From NCBI GenBank assembly GCA_029945665.1, contig JAQSCZ010000114.1:2547-66546 (forward strand): DNA of 64,000 nucleotides, written 5' to 3'. The position numbers were made by a program, and so were the translations under genes. Positions within the stretch are counted from its first letter, which is position 1, and each line of letters starts with the position of its first letter. The notes below the pieces were generated by a model, which was not told where the DNA came from, did no database searches, and was given only the letters and a program-made list of their open reading frames with translations. Positions 28,989 through 44,998 of the stretch are shown piece after piece. The stretch comes from a bacterium (GTDB lineage Bacteria > Bacteroidota > Bacteroidia > NS11-12g > UBA955).

Positions 28989-30044
28989 ATGAAAAATTCA
29001 AAAATGGTTCAGTATTATTATCTTGGCAGAGGTGCTATCAGCAACCTGCAAGAACTACTGGATATCAAAAGAACCGACGATAATAGCGATTTTGTGGTGA
29101 TGGTGGTTGATGATTATTTTGAAAATAAAAACATCATCGACTTAAGTTATCTCAAATCACAAGATTTGATAATATATGCCGATACCCGCGAAGAACCAAA
29201 AACAAGCTATGTAGATCAACTTACTAATCAAGTTAAATCGAAAGGCTATTTACCAGTAGCCGTTGTTGGTATTGGAGGTGGTAGTGCTATGGATATTGCA
29301 AAGGCTATCTCTGTTTTGTTAACAAATCCCGGTCCATCAGAAGATTACCAAGGATGGGATTTAGTTAAAAACGCACCCATCTATAAGATAGGAATACCGA
29401 CTATTGCAGGAACTGGGGCAGAATTTACAAGAACCGCAGTGCTTACTGGTCCAACTAAAAAACTGGGAATTAATTCAGATCACAGTGTATTCGATCAAGT
29501 AATATTAGATGCAGATTTATTGAAAACTGTACCCATCAATCAATTTGTTTATACTGCAATGGATTGTTATGTACACAATGCAGAATCGCTTTTAGGAATG
29601 ATAAATGATTCCATGACCATTGCATTGGCCGAAAAGGCTTCTGAACTAATTGAAGAAATATTTTTAGGAGAAATGGACCATGAAAAACTATTGGTGGCTT
29701 CATCAATGGGTGGGCTAGCTGTTGCGAATTCAAGCGTTGGTATTTGTCATCCTTTGTCTTACGGTTTAAGTATAGAACTGGGGTTGCATCATGGCTATGC
29801 CATTTGTATTGCGTTTAATCAACTCGATGAATACTATCCTCAGGTAAAGAAATTTAAAGAGATATTAAAAAAATTCAATATCACTTTACCAAAAGTAATA
29901 AACGATACCATAACAGATGAACAATTGGATAGAATGGCTGAGGCCACATTGAAAAACGAAAAGCCTTTGTCGAATGCATTTGGTCCAGATTGGAAAAATG
30001 TATTTTCAAAAGAAAAGGTCATAGAACTATTAAAAAAAATGTAA
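28989..30044 (+). CDS. kdnB: KdnB-like 3-deoxy-D-manno-octulosonate 8-oxidase (iron-containing alcohol dehydrogenase fold)
   Basis: 351 residues of the iron-dependent alcohol dehydrogenase family. It has the NAD-binding GIGGGSAMDIAKA near 96-108 and metal-ligand segments MDCYVHNAES, CHPLSYGLS and LHHGYAICI. Long stretches correspond to Shewanella KdnB as I know it: EEPKTSYVD, DYQGWDL, GTGAE...RTAVLTGP, KKLG-NSD. KdnB oxidises C8 of Kdo to an aldehyde, which KdnA then aminates. Here the next gene is a KdnA homolog, but the other neighbours are NeuA/B/C-like rather than Kdo genes, so the substrate may be a nine-carbon acid. It lies 5 bases before kdnA. Confidence 0.82.
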   Translation: MKNSKMVQYYYLGRGAISNLQELLDIKRTDDNSDFVVMVVDDYFENKNIIDLSYLKSQDLIIYADTREEPKTSYVDQLTNQVKSKGYLPVAVVGIGGGSAMDIAKAISVLLTNPGPSEDYQGWDLVKNAPIYKIGIPTIAGTGAEFTRTAVLTGPTKKLGINSDHSVFDQVILDADLLKTVPINQFVYTAMDCYVHNAESLLGMINDSMTIALAEKASELIEEIFLGEMDHEKLLVASSMGGLAVANSSVGICHPLSYGLSIELGLHHGYAICIAFNQLDEYYPQVKKFKEILKKFNITLPKVINDTITDEQLDRMAEATLKNEKPLSNAFGPDWKNVFSKEKVIELLKKM

Positions 30045-30049
30045 ATATT

Positions 30050-31216
30050 ATGCCAGGATATGAATTAATCGGAAAAGAAGAACAAGAACAATTGATGGAT
30101 ATTTTCAATACCAGCAATGGTGTTCTGTTTCCTCATGGATTTGATGCACTTAGAAACAACCGTTATCGGGTGCGCGAATTTGAAAAGAAATTTGCGGAAA
30201 AAATGGGTTCTAAATACGCCCAAGCCATCACTTCGGGCACAGTCGCTCAAGTGGTAGCCATGCTAGCCATGGGTGTTAAACCCGGTGATGAAGTGATTAC
30301 GCAGGCCTTTACTTTTGTAGCAACTGTAGAAACTATTATTGCCATTGGTGCAGTACCCGTGATAGTGGATGTCGATGATACCTATAACATGGATCCAAAA
30401 GAATTGGAAAAAGCCATAACATCAAAAACAAAATTAATTGTTCCGGTACACATGCTTGGTAACACAGCAGCTATGGATGAAATTATGGCCATCGCTGCGA
30501 AACACCAAATTGCAGTTTTAGAAGATAGTTGCGAAGCCTTGGGTGCAACGTACAATGGAAAATTTGCAGGTACCATAGGTCATGTAGGTATATACAGCCT
30601 TGATTTTGGTAAAACAATTACGACTGGAGAAGGAGGTATGATAGTAACCGATGATGAAACCATCTATAAGTTTTGTAAAGAATACCATGACCATGGGCAT
30701 GAAAGTAATCCTGCTTTTCCTAGAGGAAGAGATACCAGAACAATGGCTGGCATGAATTATAGAATGAATGAAATGCAAGGAGCTGTTGGCATGGCGCAAC
30801 TTGAAAAATTGGATACAATTTTAGCTGCCAATAGAAACAATAAAAATTATCTAGAAAAGCATATTCAAGCAGATAAAATAATATTCAGACGTTTAACGGA
30901 TGCATCAGGTGATTTAAGTGACACACTTATATTTAATTTTGAAACCCAAGCCCAGGCGTTAAAATTCGTTGATTTGTACAAAGTAGCAGGTTATGGCACT
31001 AAAAATATTCCAGATGCTATTGATTGGCATTTTACAGGTACTTGGAACCATATGTTTGCCGATGTACCCCGCTATCGCGATACATGGAAAACAGAATGGC
31101 AGCGTTCAGAAGCATTGTTATATCGATCGGTTGCTTTGCCAATTAATGTTAAAACAACCCAAGAGGCCTTGATGGAACATGTGAAGGTAATTAATCAAAT
31201 ATTAGATCAAATCTGA
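30050..31216 (+). CDS. kdnA: KdnA-like 8-amino-3,8-dideoxy-octulosonate transaminase (DegT family)
   Basis: 388-residue PLP aminotransferase with internal lysine K188 in LDFGKTITTGEGG. The start MPGYELIGKEEQ, the GVLFPHGFDALRNN block near 24-37 and HDHGHESNPAFPRGRDTR near 225 match KdnA-type rather than WecE-type enzymes. ATG at 30050 is chosen because the homologous sequence begins there; an in-frame upstream start at 29990 would run deep into kdnB. With KdnB it would replace a terminal hydroxyl by an amine. Its TGA is followed by the cytidylyltransferase with 1-base overlap. Confidence 0.8.
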   Translation: MPGYELIGKEEQEQLMDIFNTSNGVLFPHGFDALRNNRYRVREFEKKFAEKMGSKYAQAITSGTVAQVVAMLAMGVKPGDEVITQAFTFVATVETIIAIGAVPVIVDVDDTYNMDPKELEKAITSKTKLIVPVHMLGNTAAMDEIMAIAAKHQIAVLEDSCEALGATYNGKFAGTIGHVGIYSLDFGKTITTGEGGMIVTDDETIYKFCKEYHDHGHESNPAFPRGRDTRTMAGMNYRMNEMQGAVGMAQLEKLDTILAANRNNKNYLEKHIQADKIIFRRLTDASGDLSDTLIFNFETQAQALKFVDLYKVAGYGTKNIPDAIDWHFTGTWNHMFADVPRYRDTWKTEWQRSEALLYRSVALPINVKTTQEALMEHVKVINQILDQI

Positions 31217-31893
31217 TGGTTGTTGCCATAATAACAGCAAGAGCAAACTCCAAAGGACTACCAGGCAAGAACATGATGGATCTTGGTGGTATGCCGCTAA
31301 TTGAACATTCAATGAAAGTGGCTTGTGAATCAGCGGAATTTGATGCTGTTATTTTGAGTACAGATTTAATAGAGGCCATCAATTTGGCAAAAGAAAAATA
31401 TCCAAAAATAGAAGTGCCATTTGTCCGTCCCGAAAATTTGTGCGGCGATACAACTACCCATGTGGAAGTTATCAATCATTTATGTGATTATTTTGAAAGT
31501 GAAAATAGAAAAGTAGATTATTTAGTGCTATTGCAACCTACTACACCATTTCGACTTCCATCTGAAATGAATGAAGGAGTTAGCTTGTTGAAAAATGGTG
31601 CAAGTTCGGTGCTTGGCGTAACCCCTGTGATGCATCATCCAGCTGATTATTTATACAAAAATAAAGCAGGTAAAATTGAATACATTATGCCCGATTTTAA
31701 AGCGACCCGAAGACAAGATTTTCCAACAGTATATTTTAACAATGGGGCTTTCTATGGCTGCAGCTTAACGTTTTTCAAATCAACACAAAGTTTTTTTGAC
31801 TCTGAAAGTGAGCTATTGGTAATGAGTGAAAATTCATTATTTGATATTGATACAGCTTTTGATATGAAGCTAGCAAGAGCAATAATCGCTTAA
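31216..31893 (+). CDS. neuA: CMP-nonulosonate cytidylyltransferase (NeuA/PseF-like)
   Basis: 225 residues of the acylneuraminate cytidylyltransferase family. Motifs are ITARANSKGLPGKNM (6-20), a RPENLCGD loop near 74 and LLQPTTPFR near 107, with the late FNNGAFYG strand. KdsB enzymes for Kdo differ (PARYASTRLPGKP), so the natural substrate is more likely a sialic-acid-like or modified nonulosonate. It activates the sugar as its CMP derivative. It is separated from neuB by a 391-bp region holding a palindromic repeat. Confidence 0.82.
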   Translation: MVVAIITARANSKGLPGKNMMDLGGMPLIEHSMKVACESAEFDAVILSTDLIEAINLAKEKYPKIEVPFVRPENLCGDTTTHVEVINHLCDYFESENRKVDYLVLLQPTTPFRLPSEMNEGVSLLKNGASSVLGVTPVMHHPADYLYKNKAGKIEYIMPDFKATRRQDFPTVYFNNGAFYGCSLTFFKSTQSFFDSESELLVMSENSLFDIDTAFDMKLARAIIA

Positions 31894-32284
31894 TCTAATT
31901 ATAATAACCTATGTTCGGGATAACCAACTTCAATTTAATAACAGCGAAACAGCCCCAAGCTATTATCTTAAAGCAGGTTGAAGTAAATGTTCTAAAAAAA
32001 AATAGGATTAATATATTATAGCAAAATATCATTGGTAGCAAAAATATTATTTTGAAAACGAAGCTGCGGGTTGAGTCCACGAATGGCGTGAAATTTCCCT
32101 TTTTCAGGGATGAAGGGCGAGCCTGCGCGTGAAGAAAAATGGAAATTTCTCATTCGTGGTGGGCTTTTTTGCCTACTTTTTTGCCCAAACAAAAAAGTAG
32201 GAGATGAGATATGATCATTCATCATGTGGTATAATGATTTTGGAAACATTCTTAACTTGAACTCACTTTATAATAACAAGAAAA
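31894..32284. other. 391-bp gap between neuA-like and neuB-like genes
   Basis: The first 150 bp and the last 75 bp show nothing. The middle (32061-32205) is a complex palindromic element described separately. An open frame on the minus strand across it has no protein-like features and is not counted as a gene. Confidence 0.6.
32061..32205. repeat. REP-like palindromic element with two hairpins
   Basis: Hairpin 1: CCACGAATG (32077-32085) and GAAATTTCC (32090-32098) pair with GGAAATTTC (32141-32149) and CATTCGTGG (32151-32159), with a GC-rich apical region between. Hairpin 2: CCTACTTTTTTG (32172-32183) pairs perfectly over 12 bp with CAAAAAAGTAGG (32190-32201) around CCCAAA. Sequences of the second type are widespread in intergenic regions of Bacteroidota genomes, as I recall, and may be mobilised by RayT-like transposases. 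It may also act as a terminator or mRNA stabiliser. Confidence 0.65.
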
Positions 32285-33331
32285 ATGAAACCATATTTTG
32301 AAATAAAAGGAAGAAAAATAGGCTATGATTTCGATCCATTGGTAATTGCCGAAATTGGCATTAATCATGAAGGATCCTTAAAAACAGCTTTAGAGATGGT
32401 AGACGCAGCCTATGCCGCTGGGGCCGAAATTGTAAAACACCAAACCCATATTGTATCAGATGAAATGTCGGGAGCCGCTAGGAAAACGATTCCGGGCAAT
32501 GCCACTGTTTCTATTTACGATATCATGGAACGTTGTGCTTTAAATGAAGAAGAAGAGTTAGAAATGATGCGATATACCGAATCGAAAGGCATGATTTTTA
32601 TAAGCACTCCTTTCTCAAGAGCAGCGGCAGAGCGTTTGAAAAAATTTGATATACCTGCCTATAAAATTGGTTCGGGCGAATGTAATAATTACCCTTTGCT
32701 CGAACACGTTGCATCCTTTGGAAAACCAATCATTCTAAGCACTGGCATGAACACAATAGAAAGTGTAGAGAAGGCCGTTCATATTTTCAGAAAGCACAAA
32801 GTGCCTTATGCTTTATTGCACTGTACCAATGTGTATCCAACACCTCCACAATTGGTGCGTTTAGGAGCCATTGCAGAACTCGAACAACATTTTCCTGATG
32901 CAGTTTTAGGCTTATCGGATCATACTGTTAATAATTATGCTTGTTTGGGCGCAGTAGCAGTGGGTGCCTCAATTTTAGAAAGACATTTTACAGATAGTAT
33001 GAGCCGACCAGGACCTGATATTATTTGTTCGATGGATACCAAAGTCATGAGCGAATTGATTGAAGGTTCAAAGATTTTGAAGTTAGAAAGAGGCGGGCAT
33101 AAAGGTCCTGTGAGAGAAGAACAACCTACTATTGATTTTGCTTTTGCAACAGTGGTAGCTATCAAAGATATTCAAGCAGGTGAATTGTTTACTGCAGATA
33201 ATATTTGGGTGAAAAGACCAGGCACTGGTGAGATTCCAGCAGAACGTTACACGGAATTATTTGAGATGAAAGCCAAAAGTTTCATTGCCTCGGATACACA
33301 AATTAGTTGGTCGCATACTGATGCCAAGTAA
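32285..33331 (+). CDS. neuB: Nonulosonic acid synthase (NeuB family)
   Basis: 348 residues. The N-terminal TIM-barrel synthase domain contains AEIGINHEGSLKTALEMVDAA near 22-42, then GAEIVKHQTH and ISTPFS, with the metal-binding histidine in the NNYACLGAVAVGASILERHFT region. A C-terminal SAF (antifreeze-like) domain lies at about 285-345, containing RPGTGEIP. It condenses PEP with an N-acyl-mannosamine-type sugar to give a nine-carbon acid. Substrate could be ManNAc made by the adjacent NeuC-like enzyme. The first gene after the palindromic element. Confidence 0.85.
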   Translation: MKPYFEIKGRKIGYDFDPLVIAEIGINHEGSLKTALEMVDAAYAAGAEIVKHQTHIVSDEMSGAARKTIPGNATVSIYDIMERCALNEEEELEMMRYTESKGMIFISTPFSRAAAERLKKFDIPAYKIGSGECNNYPLLEHVASFGKPIILSTGMNTIESVEKAVHIFRKHKVPYALLHCTNVYPTPPQLVRLGAIAELEQHFPDAVLGLSDHTVNNYACLGAVAVGASILERHFTDSMSRPGPDIICSMDTKVMSELIEGSKILKLERGGHKGPVREEQPTIDFAFATVVAIKDIQAGELFTADNIWVKRPGTGEIPAERYTELFEMKAKSFIASDTQISWSHTDAK

Positions 33332-33380
33332 TTGTTGAACATGTTTATTAGTTTTAAAGGTTTGATACAGTGTACAGTGT

Positions 33381-33388
33381 TACCTTTG
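33381..33388 (+). promoter_or_regulatory. -7 box for the neuC-like gene
   Basis: TACCTTTG followed by CA, 32 bases before the ATG at 33421, with a TTTG at 33361-33364 as a possible but close-set -33 element. It suggests the neuC-like gene has its own transcript start. Confidence 0.55.
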
Positions 33389-33420
33389 CAAATGACAACA
33401 TCCAATTCAAAGAATTGATA

Positions 33421-34560
33421 ATGATTCAAAAAAAGAAAATAGTTTTTTTAACGGGCACCCGCGCAGATTTTGGTAAATTAAAATCGCTAATTGAAGTGGT
33501 GCTAAAAGTAGACCATTTGGAAGCACATATTTTTGCAACCGGTATGCACATGGATTCTAAGTACGGAAGAACTGTGGATGAGATTCAGAAATGTGGCTAT
33601 CCCAATATTTTCAGTTATATCAATCACCATGAATACGATAGCATGGATACGATACTATCAAAAACGATTGATGGATTTTCGGGTTATGTTAAAGAACTAA
33701 AACCAGATCTTATCATCATCCATGGTGATAGGGTAGAAGCACTTGCAGGCGCCATTGTAGGGGCCTTAAACAACATATTAGTGGCACATATTGAAGGGGG
33801 TGAAGTTTCTGGCACCATCGATGAACTGATTCGACATGCAGTAAGCAAAATGAGTCATGTGCACTTTGTGGCCCATGATACTGCCAAAGCGCGATTGTTG
33901 CAAATGGGTGAAGTGCCCGATTCTGTCTTTGTTATTGGTTCTCCCGATGTCGATGTGATGCTTTCCGATAGGTTGCCAACTTTGGAGCTTGTGAAAGATT
34001 ATTATGAAATAAAGTTTGATAAGTATGCTATGGTGATGTTCCATCCAGTAACAACAGAATTCGATCAGATTTATGATCAGGCGAATAATTTAGCCGATGC
34101 TTTAATTGAATCTGGTAAAAATTATGTAGTGGTATTTCCCAACAACGATATGGGCAATGATTATATTCTGAGAAGTTTTAAAAAATTCCAGAATAATCCC
34201 AAATTTGTGGTGTATCCATCATTGCGCTTTGAGTATTTCTTAATTTTACTTAAACATGCAGAATTTATTATAGGAAATTCAAGTGCCGGCATTCGCGAGG
34301 CTCCATATTATGGCGTACCAACAATTAATATTGGCAGTCGTCAGAATAACCGTGCCTTAGGTCGCGATATGATAAATATTGACTATGATATGGCTTCAAT
34401 TTTGGGAGCAATTAAAACGGCTAATAGCAAAAAATTAGAACCTATCAGACATTTTGGAGAAGGTAAAAGCGATGTGTTATTTATGAGTGAATTAAAAAAA
34501 GATTCATTTTGGAAAATTCCAAAGCAAAAGTATTTTCTAGATTTCAGTAAATCAATATGA
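33421..34560 (+). CDS. neuC: UDP-GlcNAc 2-epimerase, hydrolysing (NeuC/LegG-like)
   Basis: 379 residues from the ATG at 33421; an earlier in-frame start at 33370 would lie upstream of the promoter box. It has the NeuC-type opening VFLTGTRADFGKL, then ATGMHMDSKYGRT, HGDRVEALAGA and the late GNSSAGIREAPYYGVPTINIGSRQ block. Hydrolysing epimerases of this group release ManNAc (NeuC) or a 4-amino analogue (LegG) plus UDP. No LegB/LegC dehydratase and aminotransferase are nearby, so ManNAc is the simpler product. Ends in ATGA overlap with the next gene. Confidence 0.83.
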   Translation: MIQKKKIVFLTGTRADFGKLKSLIEVVLKVDHLEAHIFATGMHMDSKYGRTVDEIQKCGYPNIFSYINHHEYDSMDTILSKTIDGFSGYVKELKPDLIIIHGDRVEALAGAIVGALNNILVAHIEGGEVSGTIDELIRHAVSKMSHVHFVAHDTAKARLLQMGEVPDSVFVIGSPDVDVMLSDRLPTLELVKDYYEIKFDKYAMVMFHPVTTEFDQIYDQANNLADALIESGKNYVVVFPNNDMGNDYILRSFKKFQNNPKFVVYPSLRFEYFLILLKHAEFIIGNSSAGIREAPYYGVPTINIGSRQNNRALGRDMINIDYDMASILGAIKTANSKKLEPIRHFGEGKSDVLFMSELKKDSFWKIPKQKYFLDFSKSI

Positions 34561-35918
34561 TCTTAAACAGCCTTTATGTTTTCTTTCATTATGCCTTTTT
34601 TGTTTGTGCCTATCAATTGGGTATAAAAAAGGGCTCTAAAATCAATTATTCGGGAAAAAGTTTAGTTGATAGGCCTCAAGGAAGCCATAGACTTATAGAT
34701 GGCAATCAATTGGGTTTATTAGTCATCCCAATATTTTATTATAGGTTATTATTTAATATTTTCCTTTTGCCATCTAAAAAAGTTTCTGTTACTCAGGACA
34801 ATGGTATTGGGTTGTACGATGAGGCCAACAGTGAAACCCCAAGATTGGATTTTATTCATAAAATGTCGGGGCAAATTCCGGGAATATACATTAATAAGCA
34901 AGAGCTTATGAATTATGAATTACCGACTGGTATCAAGTTAATATTGGGCGTAATTTATTTTTGGATTTGTTTGTTGTTATTGCCATTCACGTTGTCCAAA
35001 AACAGACAATTATATGCTTTACTAATTCATGAAATATATGAGTTATCTGTTTTATTTGTGATTGTTAAAAAACATAAAATTAAACATTTATATTATTCTT
35101 GCATTTTTGAAAAAGACTCTAATGCAGCAACCTATCTATTACAAAAGAAACATATTTATGTTACTAAAAATCCATCTGAAGATCCTTTGTACTTTCACAA
35201 TCAATTTATAATAGCAGATGAGTTGGGAATTTGTAACCCTTATCAATGGGAGGAATTGGAGGCATATAGTTCAAGCATTTTTGTTAAAAAATTCAATCAA
35301 TGGTTACCTGAACAATATGAACCATTGTTAACACAAAATTTAGACCAAGGGGATGGTAGTAATAAAAATGTCATTGGGTATTATTCAGGCGCATCTTGGT
35401 TAAATAAACACCTAAAAAATAATTTAACCTCGGATGCCTATAATCCTTATAAAGCAGAAGAAGAGCTAATTACATATCTTGCGGAGTTTTTAAAAAATAA
35501 CACAAAATTAACGCTTAAGATTTTTTTACATCCTTTGGAAAAGAAAGTAGAGTATATAGAATTAAGTAGAAAGCATTATAGCGATAAGTTCCAAGGTACA
35601 AACTATGAAGTTGCAGATATAACCAAATCTAATTATGAAATGTTCAATGAATGTAACATAGCAATTACAATATTTTCTGGATTAATGATTTATAGATTTT
35701 ACAGGGGCCTTAAGGGCATCTTTTACAATCCTTATTTCCCTAATTATCCCCTACATGGAAGTACTTTCGCCAAAATAAGCTCAAAAAATAGGGAACAATT
35801 ATTTAGCCAAATAAATGAAATACATTCCATGAACAATGAAGATTTTAATATTATTAAACTGAAGGGGATGTATCAATGGGAGAAAGTACTGAATGAAAAG
35901 AATGTTCTTTTGAATTAA
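34557..35918 (+). CDS. Unassigned GT-like protein coupled to the nonulosonate genes
   Basis: 453 residues. I do not recognise the family. There are hydrophobic segments near 5-20 and 125-150. The second half has a GT-B-like pattern: NVIGYYSGASWLNKHL near 275, then LKIFLHPLEKKVEY with an HP pair near 325, then NIAITIFSGLMIYRFYRGLKGIFYNP near 365. Bacterial sialyltransferases and polysialyltransferases carry an HP motif followed by a Ser/Thr motif, so a role as the nonulosonate transferase is a reasonable guess from motif and from the 4-base overlap with neuC. Not certain. Confidence 0.5.
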   Translation: MILNSLYVFFHYAFFVCAYQLGIKKGSKINYSGKSLVDRPQGSHRLIDGNQLGLLVIPIFYYRLLFNIFLLPSKKVSVTQDNGIGLYDEANSETPRLDFIHKMSGQIPGIYINKQELMNYELPTGIKLILGVIYFWICLLLLPFTLSKNRQLYALLIHEIYELSVLFVIVKKHKIKHLYYSCIFEKDSNAATYLLQKKHIYVTKNPSEDPLYFHNQFIIADELGICNPYQWEELEAYSSSIFVKKFNQWLPEQYEPLLTQNLDQGDGSNKNVIGYYSGASWLNKHLKNNLTSDAYNPYKAEEELITYLAEFLKNNTKLTLKIFLHPLEKKVEYIELSRKHYSDKFQGTNYEVADITKSNYEMFNECNIAITIFSGLMIYRFYRGLKGIFYNPYFPNYPLHGSTFAKISSKNREQLFSQINEIHSMNNEDFNIIKLKGMYQWEKVLNEKNVLLN

Positions 35919-35967: not shown

Positions 35968-37185
35968 ATGTCTGATAAAAATACACTCATTCTTTTAACC
36001 CATCAATTTCCGTTTTTTAACGGAGAGGATTTTTTGAATGACGAACTTGAGGTTATAGCACCATTTTTTGATAAGGTGGTAATATATCCGAGCAGAAAAA
36101 ATAAAGGCAAGATACCAACAAGTAATTTGCCTGGTAATGTTGAAGTTCTCACACTTGAAAATTATACCTTTAAAGGACGTACCATCCGATTTGGAATTTT
36201 AATTGGACAAATACTTAAAAAGGAATTTATAAGGTCGCCATCCGCAAAATTCTTTTTTTCAACGCTTAGATTCAATTTATCATTACTAAAACAATGCTAT
36301 TTGAAAGCGCTTGCCATTGGTAACCAACTAAAGTCAGATGAAAAAAGTTTTATTTATTCTTACTGGTGTGATGATCTTGCGTTAATAGGTTCTTTTTTAA
36401 AGTTAAATAATCCAAGTGTTGTTTTTATTTCTAGGGCACACGGTTTTGATGTTTTTGAGGAACAATCAAAATATCAACATATTTTTTTTCGGCCTTTTCA
36501 ATTGTCTATGCTAGACATGCTATGCGCCGTTTCACAAGCTGGATCGATACATTTGAAAAATATGAATCCTGAATTTGCAGACAAAATTAACTTTCGATAT
36601 TTGGGTATCAAAAGTAATACGGTCAGTTTCTTTGAGGAATCAGAGGTTGTAAAATTGGTTTCATGTTCGCATGTAAGATCAATTAAACGTTTGTATTTAT
36701 TGATAGATGTGCTTAAGTTGGTTAAAGGTATTAAAATAGAATGGCATGTGATTGGTGATGGGTCCGGTCTTTCAGAACTTAAGCAGTTATCAGAGAAATT
36801 GCCAGACAATTGTGAAATAATATTTTATGGACATTTGAGTATAGATAAAATACATGCTTTATATGAAAGCAAACACTTTGATTTTTTGGTGAGTTTAAGC
36901 ACAAGTGAAGGCTTACCTGTAAGCATGATGGAAGCGATTAGTCACGGCATACCAATCATATCTACTAATGTTGGGGGTTGTGTAGAAATTGTAAATTCAA
37001 CAACTGGGCACCTCATTCCTAAAGATTTTTCAAATGAACTACTAGCGAGCCTAATTTTAAATTGCAAATCAGATAAATTTAATAATAAAAAAGCGAGAAA
37101 AGCAATTGTTGATTTTTGGAAGGGAAATTTCTTTTATAAGGCTAATTATACAATTTTTGCCAAAGACATACTTGCATTAAAGTAG
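35968..37185 (+). CDS. Family 4 glycosyltransferase
   Basis: 405 residues. C-terminal donor domain: LVSCSHVRSIKRLYLLIDVL, WHVIGDGSGLSEL, then STSEGLPVSMMEAISHGIPIISTNVGG with the E-x7-E pair. Paralog of the GT4 at 20768 with shared SYW-D and SRAHGFD motifs. It probably adds one residue of the repeat unit. Gap of 49 bp before it and 23 bp before hisH. Confidence 0.82.
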   Translation: MSDKNTLILLTHQFPFFNGEDFLNDELEVIAPFFDKVVIYPSRKNKGKIPTSNLPGNVEVLTLENYTFKGRTIRFGILIGQILKKEFIRSPSAKFFFSTLRFNLSLLKQCYLKALAIGNQLKSDEKSFIYSYWCDDLALIGSFLKLNNPSVVFISRAHGFDVFEEQSKYQHIFFRPFQLSMLDMLCAVSQAGSIHLKNMNPEFADKINFRYLGIKSNTVSFFEESEVVKLVSCSHVRSIKRLYLLIDVLKLVKGIKIEWHVIGDGSGLSELKQLSEKLPDNCEIIFYGHLSIDKIHALYESKHFDFLVSLSTSEGLPVSMMEAISHGIPIISTNVGGCVEIVNSTTGHLIPKDFSNELLASLILNCKSDKFNNKKARKAIVDFWKGNFFYKANYTIFAKDILALK

Positions 37186-37208: not shown

Positions 37209-37823
37209 ATGATAACTATTGTAAATTACGGTTTAGGAAATCTGGGAAGCATAGAAAATATGTTAAAGAATTTAGGACTTACAGAAGTCCGGGTATCTTC
37301 TAATCATGAAGAAATTCTTAATTCAGATAAATTGATTTTACCTGGAGTCGGTGCGTTTGATGCTGGAATGGAGAGAATAGTCGACAGTGGTCTTATACAA
37401 GCATTAAATACTGCTGTATTAATTGATCGAAAACCAGTTTTAGGCATTTGTCTTGGAATGCAATTAATGTGCAATGGAAGTGAAGAAGGAAAACTTAATG
37501 GACTAGGTTGGATTGATGCGGATGCCGTTAAATTTAATTTCGACAGCTTTGAAATGAAGGTTCCACACATGGGCTGGAATTATGTCAATGTGTTAGATAA
37601 AGGCTTAGAAATGTGTTTGCCAACCCCATCAAAATTCTATTTTGTGCATTCTTATTTTGTAAAATGCAAAAGAAAAGAAGATGAAATAATAACATGTAAT
37701 TATGGTCACGAGTTTGTTGCAGGGTTTAAAAAAGATAATATAATGGGTGTTCAGTTTCATCCTGAGAAAAGTCATAAATACGGCTTGGCCATATTAAAAT
37801 ATTTTACTGACGATAACTTATAA
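37209..37823 (+). CDS. hisH: HisH-like glutamine amidotransferase (glycan amidotransferase subunit)
   Basis: 204 residues of class I glutamine amidotransferase. Cys81 in GICLGMQLMC is the nucleophile, the oxyanion strand LPGVGAFDAG lies near 44-53 and the His/Glu of the triad are in QFHPEKSH near 187. It supplies ammonia from glutamine through the HisF-like partner. With HisF2 and a WbpG-type protein downstream and no other his genes, the role is in sugar amidation as in Pseudomonas O5 and pseudaminic acid loci, not histidine synthesis. Confidence 0.82.
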   Translation: MITIVNYGLGNLGSIENMLKNLGLTEVRVSSNHEEILNSDKLILPGVGAFDAGMERIVDSGLIQALNTAVLIDRKPVLGICLGMQLMCNGSEEGKLNGLGWIDADAVKFNFDSFEMKVPHMGWNYVNVLDKGLEMCLPTPSKFYFVHSYFVKCKRKEDEIITCNYGHEFVAGFKKDNIMGVQFHPEKSHKYGLAILKYFTDDNL

Positions 37824-37836
37824 ACCAAAATAAGCT

Positions 37837-38613
37837 ATGCTACAATCCCGCGCAATTCCATGTTTGCTTTTAAATGAAAATGGTTTATATAAAACTATTC
37901 GGTTTAAAAATCCGCAATATATAGGCGACCCTATAAATGCGGTAAAAATATTTAATGAAAAGGAAGTAGACGAATTAATGGTTCTTGATATTACAGCAAC
38001 GAAACAGAAGCGGGAACCTAATTACGAACTATTAAAAAATATGGCTAGTGAGTGTTTTATGCCTTTGGCTTATGGAGGAGGGATTACCAATTTTTCACAA
38101 GCAGCTAAGTTATTTGAAATTGGGATTGAAAAAATAGCTATAAATTCTATTGCAACTAGTAGACCAGAATTAATAACAGAAATTACTAAAGTATACGGCA
38201 GTCAAAGTGTAATTGTGAGCATTGATACTAGAAAGAATTTATGGGGTAAATATGGCATTTACATTGATGGGGGTTCAAAAAATACAGGACTAGATTTATT
38301 TGATTATTTAAGAAAGGTAGAATCAATAGGCGCAGGCGAATTATTGATAACAGATATAGATAGGGAAGGCACTTGGAGTGGTTTTAATCTTGAACTCTTA
38401 ACATCAATTACCTCATCAGCTAGAATACCTGTAATTATTAGTGGAGGATGTGGAAGTTTGAAGGACATTGTTGATGCTGTTATTATTGGAAAAGCAAGTG
38501 GTGTAGCAATTGGTAGCATGGCCGTTTTCCAGAAAAAAGGAATGGGTGTATTGTTAAGCTTTCCAAAAAGTGCCGAACTTGAAAAGATTTTGGATAAAAG
38601 TGGGAGCCATTAA
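37837..38613 (+). CDS. hisF: HisF-like cyclase homolog lacking Asp11 (HisF2 type)
   Basis: 258-residue TIM barrel. The N-terminus reads PCLLLN where true HisF has PCLDV, so catalytic Asp11 is Leu11; Asp130 is kept in VIVSIDTRKN. Both residues are needed for imidazole glycerol phosphate formation, so that reaction is unlikely. HisF2/WbuZ proteins in O-antigen loci keep the barrel as an ammonia tunnel between HisH and the N-acetyl sugar amidotransferase. Phosphate-binding loops GGG and SGGCG remain. 13 bp after hisH. Confidence 0.83.
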   Translation: MLQSRAIPCLLLNENGLYKTIRFKNPQYIGDPINAVKIFNEKEVDELMVLDITATKQKREPNYELLKNMASECFMPLAYGGGITNFSQAAKLFEIGIEKIAINSIATSRPELITEITKVYGSQSVIVSIDTRKNLWGKYGIYIDGGSKNTGLDLFDYLRKVESIGAGELLITDIDREGTWSGFNLELLTSITSSARIPVIISGGCGSLKDIVDAVIIGKASGVAIGSMAVFQKKGMGVLLSFPKSAELEKILDKSGSH

Positions 38614-38654
38614 TAAATAAAATAGAATTTAACTAGTGTAAAACGAAAACAAAT

Positions 38655-38813
38655 ATGTGTGGATTATTAGCCTATTTTCAAAAACAACCATTCGATAGAA
38701 CCACGATAAATGACATCTATCAATCACTTCAATTAATCAATCACCGAAGCCCTGATGCTGAAGGTGCTATGCTCAATGAAATTACCAATTTACTAATGAA
38801 GGAAGTTGGGTAA
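38655..38813 (+). pseudogene. asnB: Truncated asparagine synthase (52-residue N-terminal fragment)
   Basis: An ORF of 52 codons beginning MCGLLAYFQ with Cys2 and continuing INHRSPDAEGAML, the match to NHRGPD-x-EG of AsnB glutaminase domains (Gly replaced by Ser). It then ends in an unrelated-looking tail and TAA. The remaining roughly 550 residues are absent: the next gene starts at 38901. It is a remnant of an AsnB gene between hisF and the WbpG gene, probably left when the amidotransferase or next asnB was inserted. Confidence 0.7.
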
Positions 38814-38900
38814 ATCTCAAACAATGAATTTATCAATTATTCAGTTGCCACATAACTGAATAAGCATAGATGACAGAGATTACACTATTACAAAATTAAT

Positions 38901-40046
38901 ATGACAATAAAGAAACAAGAAATTATTGAGTGTTCTCATTGTGTGCTCGATACACATGACGATCCAACAATGACATTTGATGCCAATGGTGTATGTAATT
39001 ATTGCAGAAATTATAAAAAAAACTATGTAGATAATGCAATCACTTTAGAGGAAAAAAGGCAAATATTAGAGCGTCAGTTAAACCTCATCAAAAACGCTAA
39101 GAATGGCCCTTACGATACAATACTTGGGGTGTCCGGAGGTGTCGACAGTACCTATGCAGCCTATGTTTGTAAGCAATTGGGTTTAAATCCGCTTTTGGTG
39201 CATTTTGACAATGGGTGGAACAGTGAACAAGCGGTTAGCAATATTGAACAAATCACAAAGAATACGGGTTTTGATTTATACACCTATGTTGTGGATTGGC
39301 CTGAATTCAGAGACCTACAACTTGCTTATATCAAAGCGTCTGTGTTGGACTGGGAAATACCATCGGACCATGGTTTTTTTGCCATATTGTATCGACTGGC
39401 AAATAAATTTAATATCAAATACATTTTAACAGGCCACAACCATCAAACAGAAGCAATTCTGCCTAAAACTATGCGCCATAATAAAATGGATGTAGACAAC
39501 ATCATTGACATTCATAAACAATTCGGAAAGTTGCCTATAAAAACGTATCCATTATTAGGTTTTTGGAGATTCAATTACTATCTAAGGATAAAGAAAATTG
39601 AACGATTCAATTTACTCGAATATATTGAAGAATATAATAAAGACAAGGCAAAACAAATCATAATTAAAGAAATGGGATGGAAGGATTATGGCGGTAAGCA
39701 CTATGAATCAATTTTTACAAGATTTTATCAGGGGTACGTTTTAAAAGAAAAATTTGGATTTGAAAAGAGGAAAGCACATCTCGCCAATCTTATTTGCAGT
39801 GGTCAGATTACCAAGGAAGAAGCAAAAGCTGAATTAGCTTTGCCGGTTTACAATGAAACAGTTTACAAAGTTGACAGGAATTTTGTACTTAAAAAACTTG
39901 GTTTAAATGAAGAGCAATTTCAAGCCATGATGAACGAGCCAGTGCGTTCACATCTGGAATTTAAATCTTATATGAAAGGTTTGTACCTAAAGCACGAAAA
40001 ATTCATGCGTACGATAAAACCGATAACAAAATTATTTAAAAAATAA
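38901..40046 (+). CDS. wbpG: N-acetyl sugar amidotransferase (WbpG/PseA-like)
   Basis: 381 residues. A zinc-knuckle-like N-terminus has C11, C14, C32 and C35 (CSHC, CNYC), and a PP-loop SGGVDST at 78-84 binds ATP. The family converts an N-acetyl group to N-acetimidoyl (acetamidino), using ammonia from HisH via HisF, for ManNAc3NAmA in Pseudomonas and acetamidino-pseudaminic acid in Campylobacter. In this locus the acceptor could be the nonulosonate made by the cassette at 29-34.6 kb or another amino sugar. Both options are inference. Confidence 0.86.
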   Translation: MTIKKQEIIECSHCVLDTHDDPTMTFDANGVCNYCRNYKKNYVDNAITLEEKRQILERQLNLIKNAKNGPYDTILGVSGGVDSTYAAYVCKQLGLNPLLVHFDNGWNSEQAVSNIEQITKNTGFDLYTYVVDWPEFRDLQLAYIKASVLDWEIPSDHGFFAILYRLANKFNIKYILTGHNHQTEAILPKTMRHNKMDVDNIIDIHKQFGKLPIKTYPLLGFWRFNYYLRIKKIERFNLLEYIEEYNKDKAKQIIIKEMGWKDYGGKHYESIFTRFYQGYVLKEKFGFEKRKAHLANLICSGQITKEEAKAELALPVYNETVYKVDRNFVLKKLGLNEEQFQAMMNEPVRSHLEFKSYMKGLYLKHEKFMRTIKPITKLFKK

Positions 40047-40212: not shown

Positions 40213-42072
40213 ATGTGTGGAATATTAACTATATATAAGAAAGAAGGAATAGGCCGATCTGACCTGGATTCATCACTGAAATCCTTAAATATAATTAAGC
40301 ATAGAGGTCCTGATGGGGAAGGACTTATTTTGATTAATACTAAAAATCAAGAATATGAGGTTATTTTAACTGCCGATACTCCTAAAGGTATTTCAGGTAT
40401 TGGAATAGAAGAAATTGATTTTAATAAGGGATATGATTTGTTATTAGCCCACAGACGCTTATCTATTTTTGATTTGAGTATAAAAGGCCATCAACCATTA
40501 TTCTATAAAGAACAAGTCATTGTATTTAATGGTGAGATATATAATTTTCATGAATTAAAGGAAATTTTGATTGAAACAGGCTATACCTTTACAAGTGGCA
40601 CAGATACAGAAGTTATCTTAGCTGCCTATAACCACTGGGGTAAGGATTGTTTTGCGAAATTTAATGGCATGTGGTCTTTGGCAATTTACAATCTAAAAAC
40701 CGGTGAATTGACTGTATCTAATGATAGGTATGGTGTAAAACCGTTATATTATTTTATTGAAGATCAAAATTTTATATTAATGTCTGAACCAAAACAAATA
40801 TTGGCATTTCCTGAAAAGATGAGAGGAATAAATACACGGGCCGTTAATATCTTTATGGATTTGGGATACCTATTTATTGACCATGGAACTTTTTTCAAAG
40901 ATATATTTCGTTTTCCCATTGCAAGTCATTATTGTTTTAAAGCAGGTGAAAAAAACTTGTCTTTTATTAAAGGACCTGAGAAGTTTTATGTTTTACCCAA
41001 TATTATTAAAAATGATATTTCGCAAGCAGAAGTTATAAAAACTTTTAAAAAGTTATTTTCAGACGCGGTAAAAATTAGACTAAGGTCGGATGTCAAGTTG
41101 GGTATAGCGTTATCTGGAGGATTGGATTCAACATCTATAGCATTTGTGGCTAAAGAGGTATTGCAGAATCATAATTTTACCACATTTTCAGTAATTGCCG
41201 AAAAGGGATCTGAAGGCGATGAGTCATATTATATTAATCTTGCGAACAAACAACTAGACTCAGAAAATATTCAAGTTAATCCTCTGTATGACTTTAATAA
41301 AGAGTCCTTTCTTAATCAGATTTATCAAATTGGGTCACCTGTAGCCGATACTTCATTTTTTGCACAGTATATACTTAACAAAGTCATCAAGAAAAATGGA
41401 GTGACAGTGCTATTAACTGGTCAAGGTGGAGATGAAATACTAGCTGGCTATCACCATCATTTTTATAAATACACCAGCGAACTTTTCAGACAAGGGAAAA
41501 TCATTAAAGGCATTAAAGAAATAAACAAATGGTCGAAATTAAAGGGAAAAAGTAAAAGGAGTGTTTTAAATTCTGCATTTTTTGATTTTTATTTAACAAC
41601 TAAGACTAAACTTGGTTTATCTAAATTTCCCTTTGATTTTCAAAATAAGATATTTTCAACGAAAAGATTAATTGATTTTTTAAAACTCGAAATTGAAATG
41701 CTGCAATTACCTTATTTTCTTCTTGCAGATGATAGGTTTAGTATGGCTTCTGCTGTGGAGACCAGAAATCCATTTTTAGATTATCGATTGGTGGACTTTG
41801 TTTTTAGTTTGCCCAATCAATATAAAATTCGTGATGGCTGGCAAAAATGGCTTTTAAGAGAAACCATGAGCGAAATGCCAGATGAAATCCGATACAGAAA
41901 GGACAAAAAGGGTTTTACAACGCCTATGCAATCTTGGATTGCATCTAATCAGGAAATGTTGAATTCACTGGCTTTAGTCAGCGATCAATATTTTCCAGAG
42001 CATATTTCCAAGCCTCTTTTTAAGCGGGCTGCAATGGGCGCTTGGATTCAAAATTTTATAATAAAAAATTGA
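40213..42072 (+). CDS. asnB: Asparagine synthase (glutamine-hydrolysing), second complete copy
   Basis: 619 residues. MCGILTIYKK supplies Cys2, KHRGPDGEG and FNGEIYNF form the glutaminase site, and the PP-loop SGGLDST lies at 301-307, with a C-terminal ETRNPFLDYRLVDF segment. An insert near 50-70 (TKNQEYEVILTADTPKG) distinguishes it from the copies at 21982 and 57913. It probably amidates a uronate or nonulosonate carboxyl. It overlaps the next GT by 4 bases if the TTG at 42069 is used. Confidence 0.83.
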   Translation: MCGILTIYKKEGIGRSDLDSSLKSLNIIKHRGPDGEGLILINTKNQEYEVILTADTPKGISGIGIEEIDFNKGYDLLLAHRRLSIFDLSIKGHQPLFYKEQVIVFNGEIYNFHELKEILIETGYTFTSGTDTEVILAAYNHWGKDCFAKFNGMWSLAIYNLKTGELTVSNDRYGVKPLYYFIEDQNFILMSEPKQILAFPEKMRGINTRAVNIFMDLGYLFIDHGTFFKDIFRFPIASHYCFKAGEKNLSFIKGPEKFYVLPNIIKNDISQAEVIKTFKKLFSDAVKIRLRSDVKLGIALSGGLDSTSIAFVAKEVLQNHNFTTFSVIAEKGSEGDESYYINLANKQLDSENIQVNPLYDFNKESFLNQIYQIGSPVADTSFFAQYILNKVIKKNGVTVLLTGQGGDEILAGYHHHFYKYTSELFRQGKIIKGIKEINKWSKLKGKSKRSVLNSAFFDFYLTTKTKLGLSKFPFDFQNKIFSTKRLIDFLKLEIEMLQLPYFLLADDRFSMASAVETRNPFLDYRLVDFVFSLPNQYKIRDGWQKWLLRETMSEMPDEIRYRKDKKGFTTPMQSWIASNQEMLNSLALVSDQYFPEHISKPLFKRAAMGAWIQNFIIKN

Positions 42073-43316
42073 ATCCTGAAAAACTTCTCATCATTTGTTA
42101 TTCTTTTCCGCCTGCTCCGGGAATAGGTGGAAGAAGATGGGCTAAATTTGCCAATTATTTGCACCGCTCGGGTTTGGATATTCAGGTACTTTCTGCTCAA
42201 TACAATGGCAGCGAAAAATCTGAATGGCAGAAAGATATCCTTGCATTGGAAAAAGATAATCGCTTAAATTATTTTAACCCAAATTACCCAGGCATTCTTC
42301 AATCAGTGCCTGAAAATTGGATTCAAAAATTCAAATATCATTTTGAATTAAGAGTGCTTAAGAAACGGGTAAGGGGTAATTTTTACGACAGGTCTAGTCT
42401 GTGTAAAAAAAGTTTACTTACCTCTGTAGAAAAGTTTGTAAAACAAGGTTACATCAATATTATTATTTCAGTAGGTCCGTTTTATTATTCAAAGTATTTA
42501 CTCGAAATAAAAAAGACGCACCCGCAGGTAAAATTGTTTCTGGATGTTCGCGATCCATGGACCAATAATAAAACAGCCTTTGGGTATTGGAACCTCACAA
42601 AGAAAAGGTTTGCCATTGAGAAACAAGCAGAAACTGAAGTAGCCAATGGTTATGATAAAATATTCACTGTTGCAGACGAGATGGGAGATTATTTTATTAA
42701 AGAATATGGATTAAATAAACATAAAGTAATCACCATTAAAAATGGATTTGATACCGCTGATTTTGCGCATGTAAAGTTAAAAAAAAGCGAAAAAAATAGA
42801 TTGTTATTTACGGGTAATTTATATCAAAAAGCTGAAAAAAGTTTTCTCATATTAGTTGATCAACTAAAAAAGCTAAAATCAGAAAATTCTGATTTTTTCA
42901 AACATTATGAATGCCATTTTTATGGAGAAATACACCCTTCGTTTGCCACTTATTTTTCACCTGAAATAAATCTTTTTTTTCATGGAAGAATTCCACTAAA
43001 CGAAGTATTCATTAAAATTTCAGAATCAGTTGCCTGCTTATTGTTTCTAACAGATGATTTAAATTTTTCATTTAGTACAAAGTTTTATGAATATTTGTCG
43101 CAAAAAAAACCAATAATAGTATTCTCATTACCTGGCCCAACGGGTATATTCATAGAAACACAGAACCTCGGTAAACAAGCAAATGCTGATAATTTAATAG
43201 CCATTCTAAAGGAAGTTGAAAGTGAGTCATTCTATCAAGGTGAATTAGATATTGCCGAGTTTGATGTAAAAAATTTAACAAACAAATTATTAATCGAAAT
43301 AGGATTTAAGGATTAA
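42069..43316 (+). CDS. Family 4-like glycosyltransferase
   Basis: 415 residues. The TTG at 42069 gives a TTGA overlap with the asnB stop and starts the protein just before the first strand (KLLIICYSFPPAPGIGGRRWAKFANYL), the usual opening of GT4. The frame is open back to a TTG at 42042, a less likely start. Donor domain: RLLFTGNLYQKAEK near 255 and FYEYLSQKKPIIVFS near 347. FPP-x-x-GIGGRR is the acceptor-side glycine loop. Donor unknown. Confidence 0.75.
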   Translation: MNPEKLLIICYSFPPAPGIGGRRWAKFANYLHRSGLDIQVLSAQYNGSEKSEWQKDILALEKDNRLNYFNPNYPGILQSVPENWIQKFKYHFELRVLKKRVRGNFYDRSSLCKKSLLTSVEKFVKQGYINIIISVGPFYYSKYLLEIKKTHPQVKLFLDVRDPWTNNKTAFGYWNLTKKRFAIEKQAETEVANGYDKIFTVADEMGDYFIKEYGLNKHKVITIKNGFDTADFAHVKLKKSEKNRLLFTGNLYQKAEKSFLILVDQLKKLKSENSDFFKHYECHFYGEIHPSFATYFSPEINLFFHGRIPLNEVFIKISESVACLLFLTDDLNFSFSTKFYEYLSQKKPIIVFSLPGPTGIFIETQNLGKQANADNLIAILKEVESESFYQGELDIAEFDVKNLTNKLLIEIGFKD

Positions 43317-44215: not shown

Positions 44216-44998
44216 ATGAAAATATTAATTCTAACATCCGCTTTAAATGGCACAGCTGCTCATCATTTAGAAGTTATATTGAAGGAGCCAAGTATTCAGG
44301 TTGTAAGTGTCATTTATAGTCAAGGAGCTCCAAAATCTTTCTATAAAAAGGCCTTTCAGAAATTTAGAAAAATTCTTAAAATCGGTTTATTAGGCGCTTT
44401 AAACGGTATAAAAATGCGAAAATGGTACCATGAAGATGTTTCAAAATATGTTAAAATACAAAATTTAGAAGACTTGTGCAAAGCAAATAGGGTGCCTTTT
44501 AGTAAAACAATGAGTATCAATTCTGAAGATACTATTGAATTGTTTAAAGCATCTGGTGCTGAAATAGGAATAAGTTTAGGCAATGGCTATATTACCAATA
44601 AAATATTTACAATTTTACCAGAGGGTATGTTAAATATTCACCATGAAATTTTACCAGAATTTCAAAATGCCCAAAGTGTAATATGGCAAATTTATAATGG
44701 CTCCAATAAAACGGGTTATACCATTCATAAAATCAACAAGAAAATTGATACAGGTGAAATTTTATACCAAAAAGAATTGCCCATCATTTTCAAAGGGACC
44801 CTTGCAGAGACTGTGTCAGCATCCTATGCAGAAGTATTGAAACAATCTGCAATTGGGCTTGTTACAGTTTTGAAGGATTATAGGTTTTTTTTAAAATCTG
44901 CGGTTGTTCAAAGGGTTGGTCATACCTACACAACACCTAGTTTTACTCAATTTTTGAAAATGAAGAGGCAATTTAAAAAATTAATAAATACAATTTAA
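44216..44998 (+). CDS. Sugar N-formyltransferase-like protein
   Basis: 260 residues of the methionyl-tRNA formyltransferase fold. The catalytic triad is recognisable as Asn140 and His142 in NIHHEILPEF and Asp178 in IDTGEIL. It lacks the C-terminal tRNA-binding domain of Fmt and matches the size of sugar formyltransferases that act on amino sugars, with N10-formyl-tetrahydrofolate as donor. Acceptor unknown; the deacetylase upstream may create the amine. Directly followed by wecB (TTG right after the stop). Confidence 0.8.
   Translation: MKILILTSALNGTAAHHLEVILKEPSIQVVSVIYSQGAPKSFYKKAFQKFRKILKIGLLGALNGIKMRKWYHEDVSKYVKIQNLEDLCKANRVPFSKTMSINSEDTIELFKASGAEIGISLGNGYITNKIFTILPEGMLNIHHEILPEFQNAQSVIWQIYNGSNKTGYTIHKINKKIDTGEILYQKELPIIFKGTLAETVSASYAEVLKQSAIGLVTVLKDYRFFLKSAVVQRVGHTYTTPSFTQFLKMKRQFKKLINTI

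Follow-up and report, generated by a model that had tools for sequence, protein, structure and literature searches.

A divergent Bacteroidota family of predicted GT-B enzymes linked to nonulosonate synthesis genes

This analysis concerns an open reading frame (ORF), here termed ORFX, that directly follows a neuC gene in a 64,000-nucleotide stretch of DNA (the window) from a Bacteroidota bacterium of the lineage UBA955 (GCA_029945665.1, contig JAQSCZ010000114.1, positions 2,547 to 66,546). ORFX very probably encodes a glycosyltransferase (GT) of the GT-B type that adds a nonulosonic acid, supplied in its cytidine monophosphate (CMP)-activated form by the products of five upstream genes, to a growing surface glycan. 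The predicted GT-B fold, the conservation within the family and the genetic linkage to nonulosonate synthesis are the observations behind this assignment, and the activity itself is a prediction. The assignment is favored because family members adjoin NeuB-family genes, because a held-out set of members shows the same adjacency, because the family accompanies several donor pathways, because members sharing one of these pathways form a clade, and because ORFX and a second HP-motif family replace each other. These observations support the guess made in an initial annotation that ORFX is a nonulosonate transferase.

34557..35918, + strand: ORFX, predicted GT-B CMP-nonulosonate transferase, 453 residues

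ORFX comprises 453 codons with an ATG start and no internal stops, and it overlaps by 4 bases the end of the NeuC gene at 34560, as initially annotated.

Results

The ORFX family

ORFX gave no match in Pfam at E<=1 and none in NCBIfam, in line with the initial annotation, which had recognized no family, and a Pfam scan of 23 family members returned nothing but scattered weak matches in single members. Its description as an orphan, in contrast, had to be abandoned because relatives were found in about 30 other genomes across Bacteroidota. A search of 295 related genomes gave matches in 23, the genome of ORFX counted. The match in genome G180 was a fragment and was dropped (blast found no ORFX there), and the G037 gene is split over two contig ends, the resulting alignment (A1) having 23 rows for 22 genes. 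A profile search of 395 genomes of the class matched 28, of which 9 were new strong members; the weak matches in G431, G218, and G213 were dropped because a local profile search did not recover them, that in G661 was left out of the loci studied, and the remote relative in locus L151 (E 1e-13) was kept and counted against the assignment. The relative in locus L006 shares 64% with ORFX. Plasmid records held no match to ORFX, and a viral structure library gave generic GT-B matches only. When PDB was searched with the ORFX sequence, designed filament proteins (8ub3 and its relatives; best E 3e-5) gave short matches, which span some 35 residues of a designed repeat and were for this reason attributed to chance; a few weaker matches made up the rest. 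By these searches, ORFX is a member of a divergent Bacteroidota enzyme family without a Pfam name.

Linkage to NeuB-family genes

In 20 of the 22 loci of relatives, a NeuB-family gene lies on the same strand at a distance of no more than 3.8 kb. Of the two loci that lack it, L039 is a 4.6-kb contig that carries KdnB and KdnA homologues, and L031 contains the second half of the contig-split gene, whose first half lies in L052 together with a NeuB gene. Among the nine new strong members, which served as a held-out set, eight have a same-strand NeuB-family gene within 2.3 kb, and the locus of the ninth is cut by a contig end. Homologues of the window GT encoded at 42042-43316, taken from the 20 best-matching genomes without ORFX, were used as a control. 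The stretches retrieved contained NeuB in 8 of these 20 loci, and in 1 it lay within 3.8 kb; this control is imperfect in that some stretches were short and three control genomes proved to hold the same donor cassette. Because NeuB is common (225 of the 295 genomes), the linkage argument rests on distance rather than on presence. A cytidylyltransferase profile matched strongly (E<=1e-55) in 7 of 31 relatives' loci (L006, L036, L037, L041, L048, L052, and L141), at 2.6e-11 in L140 and more weakly in six other loci, but this count was not used as a linkage marker because the profile missed real CTP_transf_3 genes (L035 and L050). In two loci, a NeuB-like domain is fused to a KdsB-like cytidylyltransferase domain.

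L034:3094-4863, + strand: NeuB-like/KdsB-like fusion
L051:13054-14811, - strand: NeuB-like/KdsB-like fusion

Donor pathways and the NeuC-linked clade

The pathway encoded next to the family members differs from locus to locus. The member in L043 adjoins PseI (483 bits) and PseB (519 bits), both above their NCBIfam cut-offs, with a PseG-like gene below its cut-off also nearby, and this neighborhood is, by its profile matches, the pseudaminate (Pse) pathway. In L035 and L050 the relatives lie beside NeuB, CTP_transf_3, and HAD hydrolase genes, which we take to be the layout of Kdn synthesis. NeuC accompanies the members of the window, L006, L037, L038, and L052.

In the family tree, the NeuC-linked members form a single clade (support 97/94). 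Members that lack NeuC but come from the same genus or family (L045, L046, and L047) are placed elsewhere, and G001 and G002, of the same genus, hold such non-NeuC members, so the clade follows the donor pathway better than the host. The residues fixed in this clade and absent in the other members include S181 (otherwise Phe or Tyr), N205, D209, G375, and Y379; position 379 is Glu in 24 of 25 members outside the clade, and position 375 is there Thr, Ser, or Ala. By the alignment with GT38, these residues would sit around the predicted cleft. Nevertheless, one clade amounts to one event, and the clade residues are therefore no statistical proof of specificity.

Replacement of ORFX beside a possibly mobile donor unit

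The five genes upstream of ORFX are as follows.

28989..30044, + strand: KdnB homologue, iron alcohol dehydrogenase (PDB 5k8c, E 2.5e-101)
30050..31216, + strand: KdnA homologue (PDB 5k8b, E 1.3e-81)
31216..31893, + strand: cytidylyltransferase (best NCBIfam match PseF, 135.6 bits, under the cut-off of 205.7)
32285..33331, + strand: NeuB-family synthase with SAF domain (NeuB_NnaB 382.5 bits, cut-off 399.65)
33370..34560, + strand: NeuC-type hydrolyzing UDP-GlcNAc 2-epimerase (TIGR03568 410 bits, over the cut-off of 235.9)

The PDB annotations are 3-deoxy-alpha-D-manno-octulosonate 8-oxidase for 5k8c and 8-amino-3,8-dideoxy-alpha-D-manno-octulosonate transaminase for 5k8b. The KdnA ORF opens at 29990, and the alignment of its homologues starts at about codon 21.

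A close KdnB (71-100% identical by tblastn) was detected in eight genomes, and a NeuB-family gene belongs to the unit in all seven of these loci with enough sequence (L039, from G011, is cut). ORFX is present in four of the eight genomes (G000, G005, G011, and G014). Three others (G024, G041, and G047) contain only a second, GT-like family with a His-Pro (HP) motif (A3; 477-488 residues, members 34-38% alike, with SEGNNG, RLHP[ST]E, and STVLFEA-like motifs), and ORFX was not found in them. Conversely, the second family was not found in G000, G005, or G011 and gave a weak 71-residue match (E 2.3e-4) in G014. Genome G028 shows neither family, its NeuC ending about 150 bases from the contig start.

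L110:975-2426, - strand: A3 member
L112:3033-4466, - strand: A3 member
L113:3367-4830, - strand: A3 member

ORFX and A3 thus replace each other beside the KdnB/KdnA donor unit and are never clearly found together. Like ORFX, A3 adjoins this unit, and its segment from HP to Ser is related to that of ORFX (hhalign probability 75%, E 2.5e-5); unlike ORFX, A3 has canonical R-x-HP and SEG motifs, and the N-terminal halves of the two families do not align.

The donor cassette of L037 shares 88-95% identity with that of the window, whereas the transferase of this locus, located on the opposite side of the cassette, shares just 32%. The G+C content of the cassette from kdnB to neuC (28989-34560) is 37%, compared with 30% for ORFX, 32% for the window, and about 29-32% for the cassette surroundings. 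These comparisons suggest that the donor unit travels independently and is paired with different transferases, and the KdnB-KdnA-cytidylyltransferase-NeuB-NeuC cassette has the appearance of a horizontally transferred unit that supplies an amino-nonulosonate donor.

Predicted fold

AlphaFold2 modeling with A1 produced a confident GT-B fold (predicted local distance difference test (pLDDT) 90.1; predicted template modeling score 0.89), so the GT-B core expected in the initial annotation is present in the model. Searches of this model with Foldseek and VIA-align retrieved GT-B enzymes, among them the GT38 polysialyltransferase 5wc6_A (VIA-align Z 13.1, root-mean-square deviation (rmsd) 4.0, 270 aligned residues, 13% identity). 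When the C-terminal domain was modeled alone (pLDDT 89.0), 5wcn_A, a GT38 chain with cytidine diphosphate (CDP), ranked fifth in Foldseek (E 2.7e-3) with 20% identity, the highest among the 50 rows listed, and CMP- and CDP-ribitol-related chains stood near it. Of the comparisons proposed initially, that with GT38 showed a similar fold; chains of GT52 and GT80, as well as those of GT99 and GT107, were absent from the 50 VIA-align rows listed, which leaves them possible.

TarL rows also appeared in Foldseek, and a weak Glyphos_transf match (E 0.0081) was obtained for one of 23 members. These matches could point to a relative of TagF/TarL that acts as a CDP-polyol or polyol-phosphate transferase, but such an identity is extremely improbable given that Glyphos_transf is unmatched in the other 22 members, that the constant neighbor is a NeuB-family synthase, and that the window cytidylyltransferase beside ORFX most resembles PseF.

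Conserved motifs and predicted active site

Eight residues are identical in all 22 A1 rows with data: S207, Q230, E233, E301, H325, P326, E328, and R380. The late HP pair noticed initially corresponds to H325-P326, and the FSGLMIYRF segment to F373-S374-G375-L-M-I-Y379-R380-F. Since a single HP pair is common by chance, it proves nothing, and it is the conservation that constitutes the evidence. As for the Ser/Thr motif proposed in the latter segment, its first residue, S374, is kept in 21 of 22 rows, and the second did not hold, being Gly375 in ORFX. D187 is Asp in 19 of 22 rows, and position 185 is Glu or Asp in 18 of 22.

35115..35117, + strand: D187 of the [FY]-E-x-D-[SAT]-N motif, candidate catalytic base
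35175..35177, + strand: invariant S207; by alignment, its loop takes the position that the catalytic EEG loop has in GT38 (GT38 loop from the NeuS/5wcn alignment)
35529..35534, + strand: H325-P326, HP motif, predicted CMP phosphate contact by analogy with H291 of MhPST
35676..35696, + strand: S374-G375...Y379-R380, predicted phosphate loop, in which G375 and Y379 mark the NeuC-linked clade

According to the excerpted text of PMC5517516, the GT38 enzyme MhPST touches the nucleotide phosphate through H291 and S339 and is proposed to use E153 as its base; the spacing from His to Ser is 48 residues there and 49 in ORFX (H325/S374), in the same order. The C-terminal domain of ORFX (about residues 258-453) would hold CMP, with H325 and S374 at the phosphate like H291 and S339 of MhPST, and the acceptor would occupy the space separating the two domains, close to the PSxxP loop and the [FY]-E-x-D-[SAT]-N loop.

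Two family members are fused in frame to a HisH-like domain.

L042:8785-10791, - strand: ORFX homologue fused to a HisH-like domain, 669 residues
L043:8691-10691, - strand: ORFX homologue fused to a HisH-like domain, 667 residues

HisH is part of a sugar-amidating system, and the fusions suggest a tie between sugar transfer and amidation. They would also fit an enzyme that, rather than transferring the nonulosonate, alters it, perhaps before or after its activation. This is very unlikely for ORFX, considering its GT-B fold with the donor-side set of motifs and the fact that another GT of this locus or an adjacent one would then have to use the CMP sugar, no other ORF within the window having matched the ORFX profile or that of the second family.

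Comparison with known transferases

The GT38 enzymes (MhPST, 5wc6/5wcn, and Escherichia coli NeuS) resemble ORFX in the GT-B fold, in an HPxE motif after a strand, and in an S-x-x-x-x-Y phosphate loop. In E. coli UTI89, neuC is followed by a putative GT (at the place of neuE, DUF6716) and then by the polysialyltransferase, just as ORFX follows neuC here. ORFX differs from GT38 in having neither a Lys before HP nor an EEG catalytic loop, in an extra N-terminal helical region, and in its cassette. An hhalign comparison of the ORFX family gave a probability of 0.8% with E. coli NeuS and no signal with NeuE, and PF07388 (GT38) matched none of the 23 members at E<=1, with NeuS as control scoring 152 bits. 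ORFX would act in the manner of a GT-B bacterial sialyltransferase, but by profile and motif set it is not a GT38 member. Likewise, PF05159 (GT99/GT107/GT118, KpsS/KpsC-like) matched none of the 23 members (controls KpsC, 351 bits, and KpsS, 304 bits), and GT52, GT80, GT42, and GT29 were absent from the Pfam matches of these members at E<=1, in a scan without a positive control. The retaining Kdo and Pse transferases of GT99, GT107, GT118, and GT140 agree with the function predicted for ORFX in their CMP-ulosonate donors and HP motif. For KrkA and KpsS1, the excerpted text of PMC12887879 reports a base motif, "YE"; ORFX has F184-E185, and E185 is not universal in its family.

A search of the open-access literature on nonulosonate transferases turned up GtfS, Maf, GT118, and Kdo enzymes but no description of the ORFX family. 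GtfS and TFUB4_00887 of Tannerella forsythia are, in the excerpts of PMC6388019 and PMC6120980, transferases of Pse and legionaminic acid (Leg) derivatives with 445 and 442 residues, the knock-outs of which lose the terminal nonulosonate. Compared by description only, they share with ORFX the GT-B fold, the HP motif, and the phylum, and the gene is located directly after pseI. Of the D/E-D/E-G and DXD motifs reported for GtfS in these excerpts, D/E-D/E-G is absent from ORFX. As far as such descriptions go, GtfS is closest to ORFX in size, in its place after pseI, in phylum, and in function, and it may be a member of the ORFX family that has already been studied experimentally.

Discussion

Evidence against a CMP-nonulosonate transferase

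Several observations weigh against the proposed function. In VIA-align, MnaA, a GT-B enzyme that uses uridine diphosphate (UDP) sugars, outscores GT38 (Z 14.1, rmsd 5.0, 294 aligned residues), and the top rows for the C-terminal domain are the UDP-dependent NGT and OGT. Because UDP-using GT-B enzymes rank as high as or above GT38, the donor cannot be read from the fold alone; the model speaks for a GT-B enzyme and allows a CMP donor without proving it. No sequence profile connects ORFX to any characterized transferase. According to the excerpted text of PMC12887879, a Lys or Arg two residues before HP is conserved among sialyltransferases and retaining Kdo transferases, whereas this residue is Phe or Tyr in all 22 rows of the ORFX family. 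The equivalent of the GT38 EEG loop, aligned by eye, is PSxxP and has no conserved acid (E208 in 11 and D209 in 6 of 22 rows), and therefore the base must lie elsewhere. D187 and the invariant E233 and E301 are candidates from the alignment, and one of these acidic residues outside the GT38 position would act as the base.

The linkage evidence has weak points as well. In five loci the only NeuB-like gene is short (231-243 residues), and its product may be no nonulosonate synthase. The short proteins are without the C-terminal SAF part, and their genes overlap or abut the ORFX homologues.

L041:8492-9220: short NeuB-like gene
L046:10701-11393: short NeuB-like gene
L047:10681-11376: short NeuB-like gene
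L048:10762-11454: short NeuB-like gene
L141:8515-9237: short NeuB-like gene

The remote relative in L151 has no NeuB within its 19.8 kb. Furthermore, the genome that carries ORFX has additional NeuB-family genes, so a one-to-one pairing of donor and transferase cannot be assumed.

Some of these points would suit an ordinary GT-B transferase of UDP or guanosine diphosphate (GDP) sugars encoded in nonulosonate clusters, for example one that adds the acceptor residue bearing the nonulosonate, since UDP-dependent enzymes fill most of the top structural rows and such clusters contain many GTs. We nevertheless consider this function unlikely for ORFX: NeuB adjacency in 20/22 plus 8/9 loci compares with 1/20 for the neighboring GT, the link to NeuB persists while the pathway differs between members, and the family is replaced in a mutually exclusive manner by another HP-motif family. 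A CMP-nonulosonate transferase thus remains the preferred assignment.

Nature of the donor

Since KdnB and KdnA homologues are encoded in the cassette too, where they stand with NeuC, NeuB, and a PseF-like cytidylyltransferase, the donor is possibly something other than plain sialic acid. A PseF-like gene is next to KdnB/KdnA in seven of the eight close loci (L082 is cut) and was seen in none of 22 remote KdnB loci, within their short stretches, two further KdnB matches having been left out of this count. In the proposed route, NeuC and NeuB would make a sialic acid, KdnB and KdnA would turn its terminal CH2OH into CH2NH2, and the cytidylyltransferase would make the CMP sugar that ORFX then transfers. 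The simplest reading of the donor would be a 9-amino-9-deoxy sialic acid, although KdnB and KdnA could conceivably act separately on Kdo; a literature search found nothing on KdnA/KdnB acting with nonulosonates. We tentatively propose, with more doubt than confidence, that a new Bacteroidota family of CMP-nonulosonate transferases is divided into clades by donor (NeuC type, Pse, and Kdn-like) and that ORFX moves 9-amino-9-deoxy-N-acetylneuraminate or a derivative, by way of KdnB/KdnA recruited from the Kdo8N pathway onto the NeuB product. To our knowledge, such a sialic acid has not been described so far.

Surroundings of ORFX

Downstream of ORFX lie genes that we presume to be HisH-like, HisF-like, and WbpG-like, and also one that we take to be asparagine-synthase-like.

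35968..37185, + strand: GT4 glycosyltransferase (PF00534)
37209..40046, + strand: HisH-like and HisF-like genes and WbpG-like PP-loop amidotransferase (PP-loop match PF01171)

The cluster also contains a formyltransferase (PF00551) at 44216-44998, 69.6% identical in L006; N-formylation of an amino sugar by this enzyme is possible but speculative. Between the cytidylyltransferase gene and neuB, a 391-base non-coding gap (31894-32284), which measures only about 20 bases in L006, holds T-rich and palindrome-like stretches and is perhaps a small insertion. A second nonulosonate locus of the same genome, at G000:C59:16820-18851, consists of a NeuB-family gene and a UDP-GlcNAc 2-epimerase gene.

Significance of the family

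Nonulosonate transferases are the least known step in the display of bacterial sialic-acid-like sugars, and, according to the excerpted text of PMC6388019, the T. forsythia enzymes were the first of them to be supported by experiment. The pairing of the family with Pse, Kdn-like, and sialic acid pathways provides about 30 candidates and an alignment with predicted donor-contact positions, and these enzymes might serve for making Pse or Leg glycans. If it is true that KdnB and KdnA act on a nonulosonate, it would follow that the sugar is new and that a known enzyme pair has been put to a new use.

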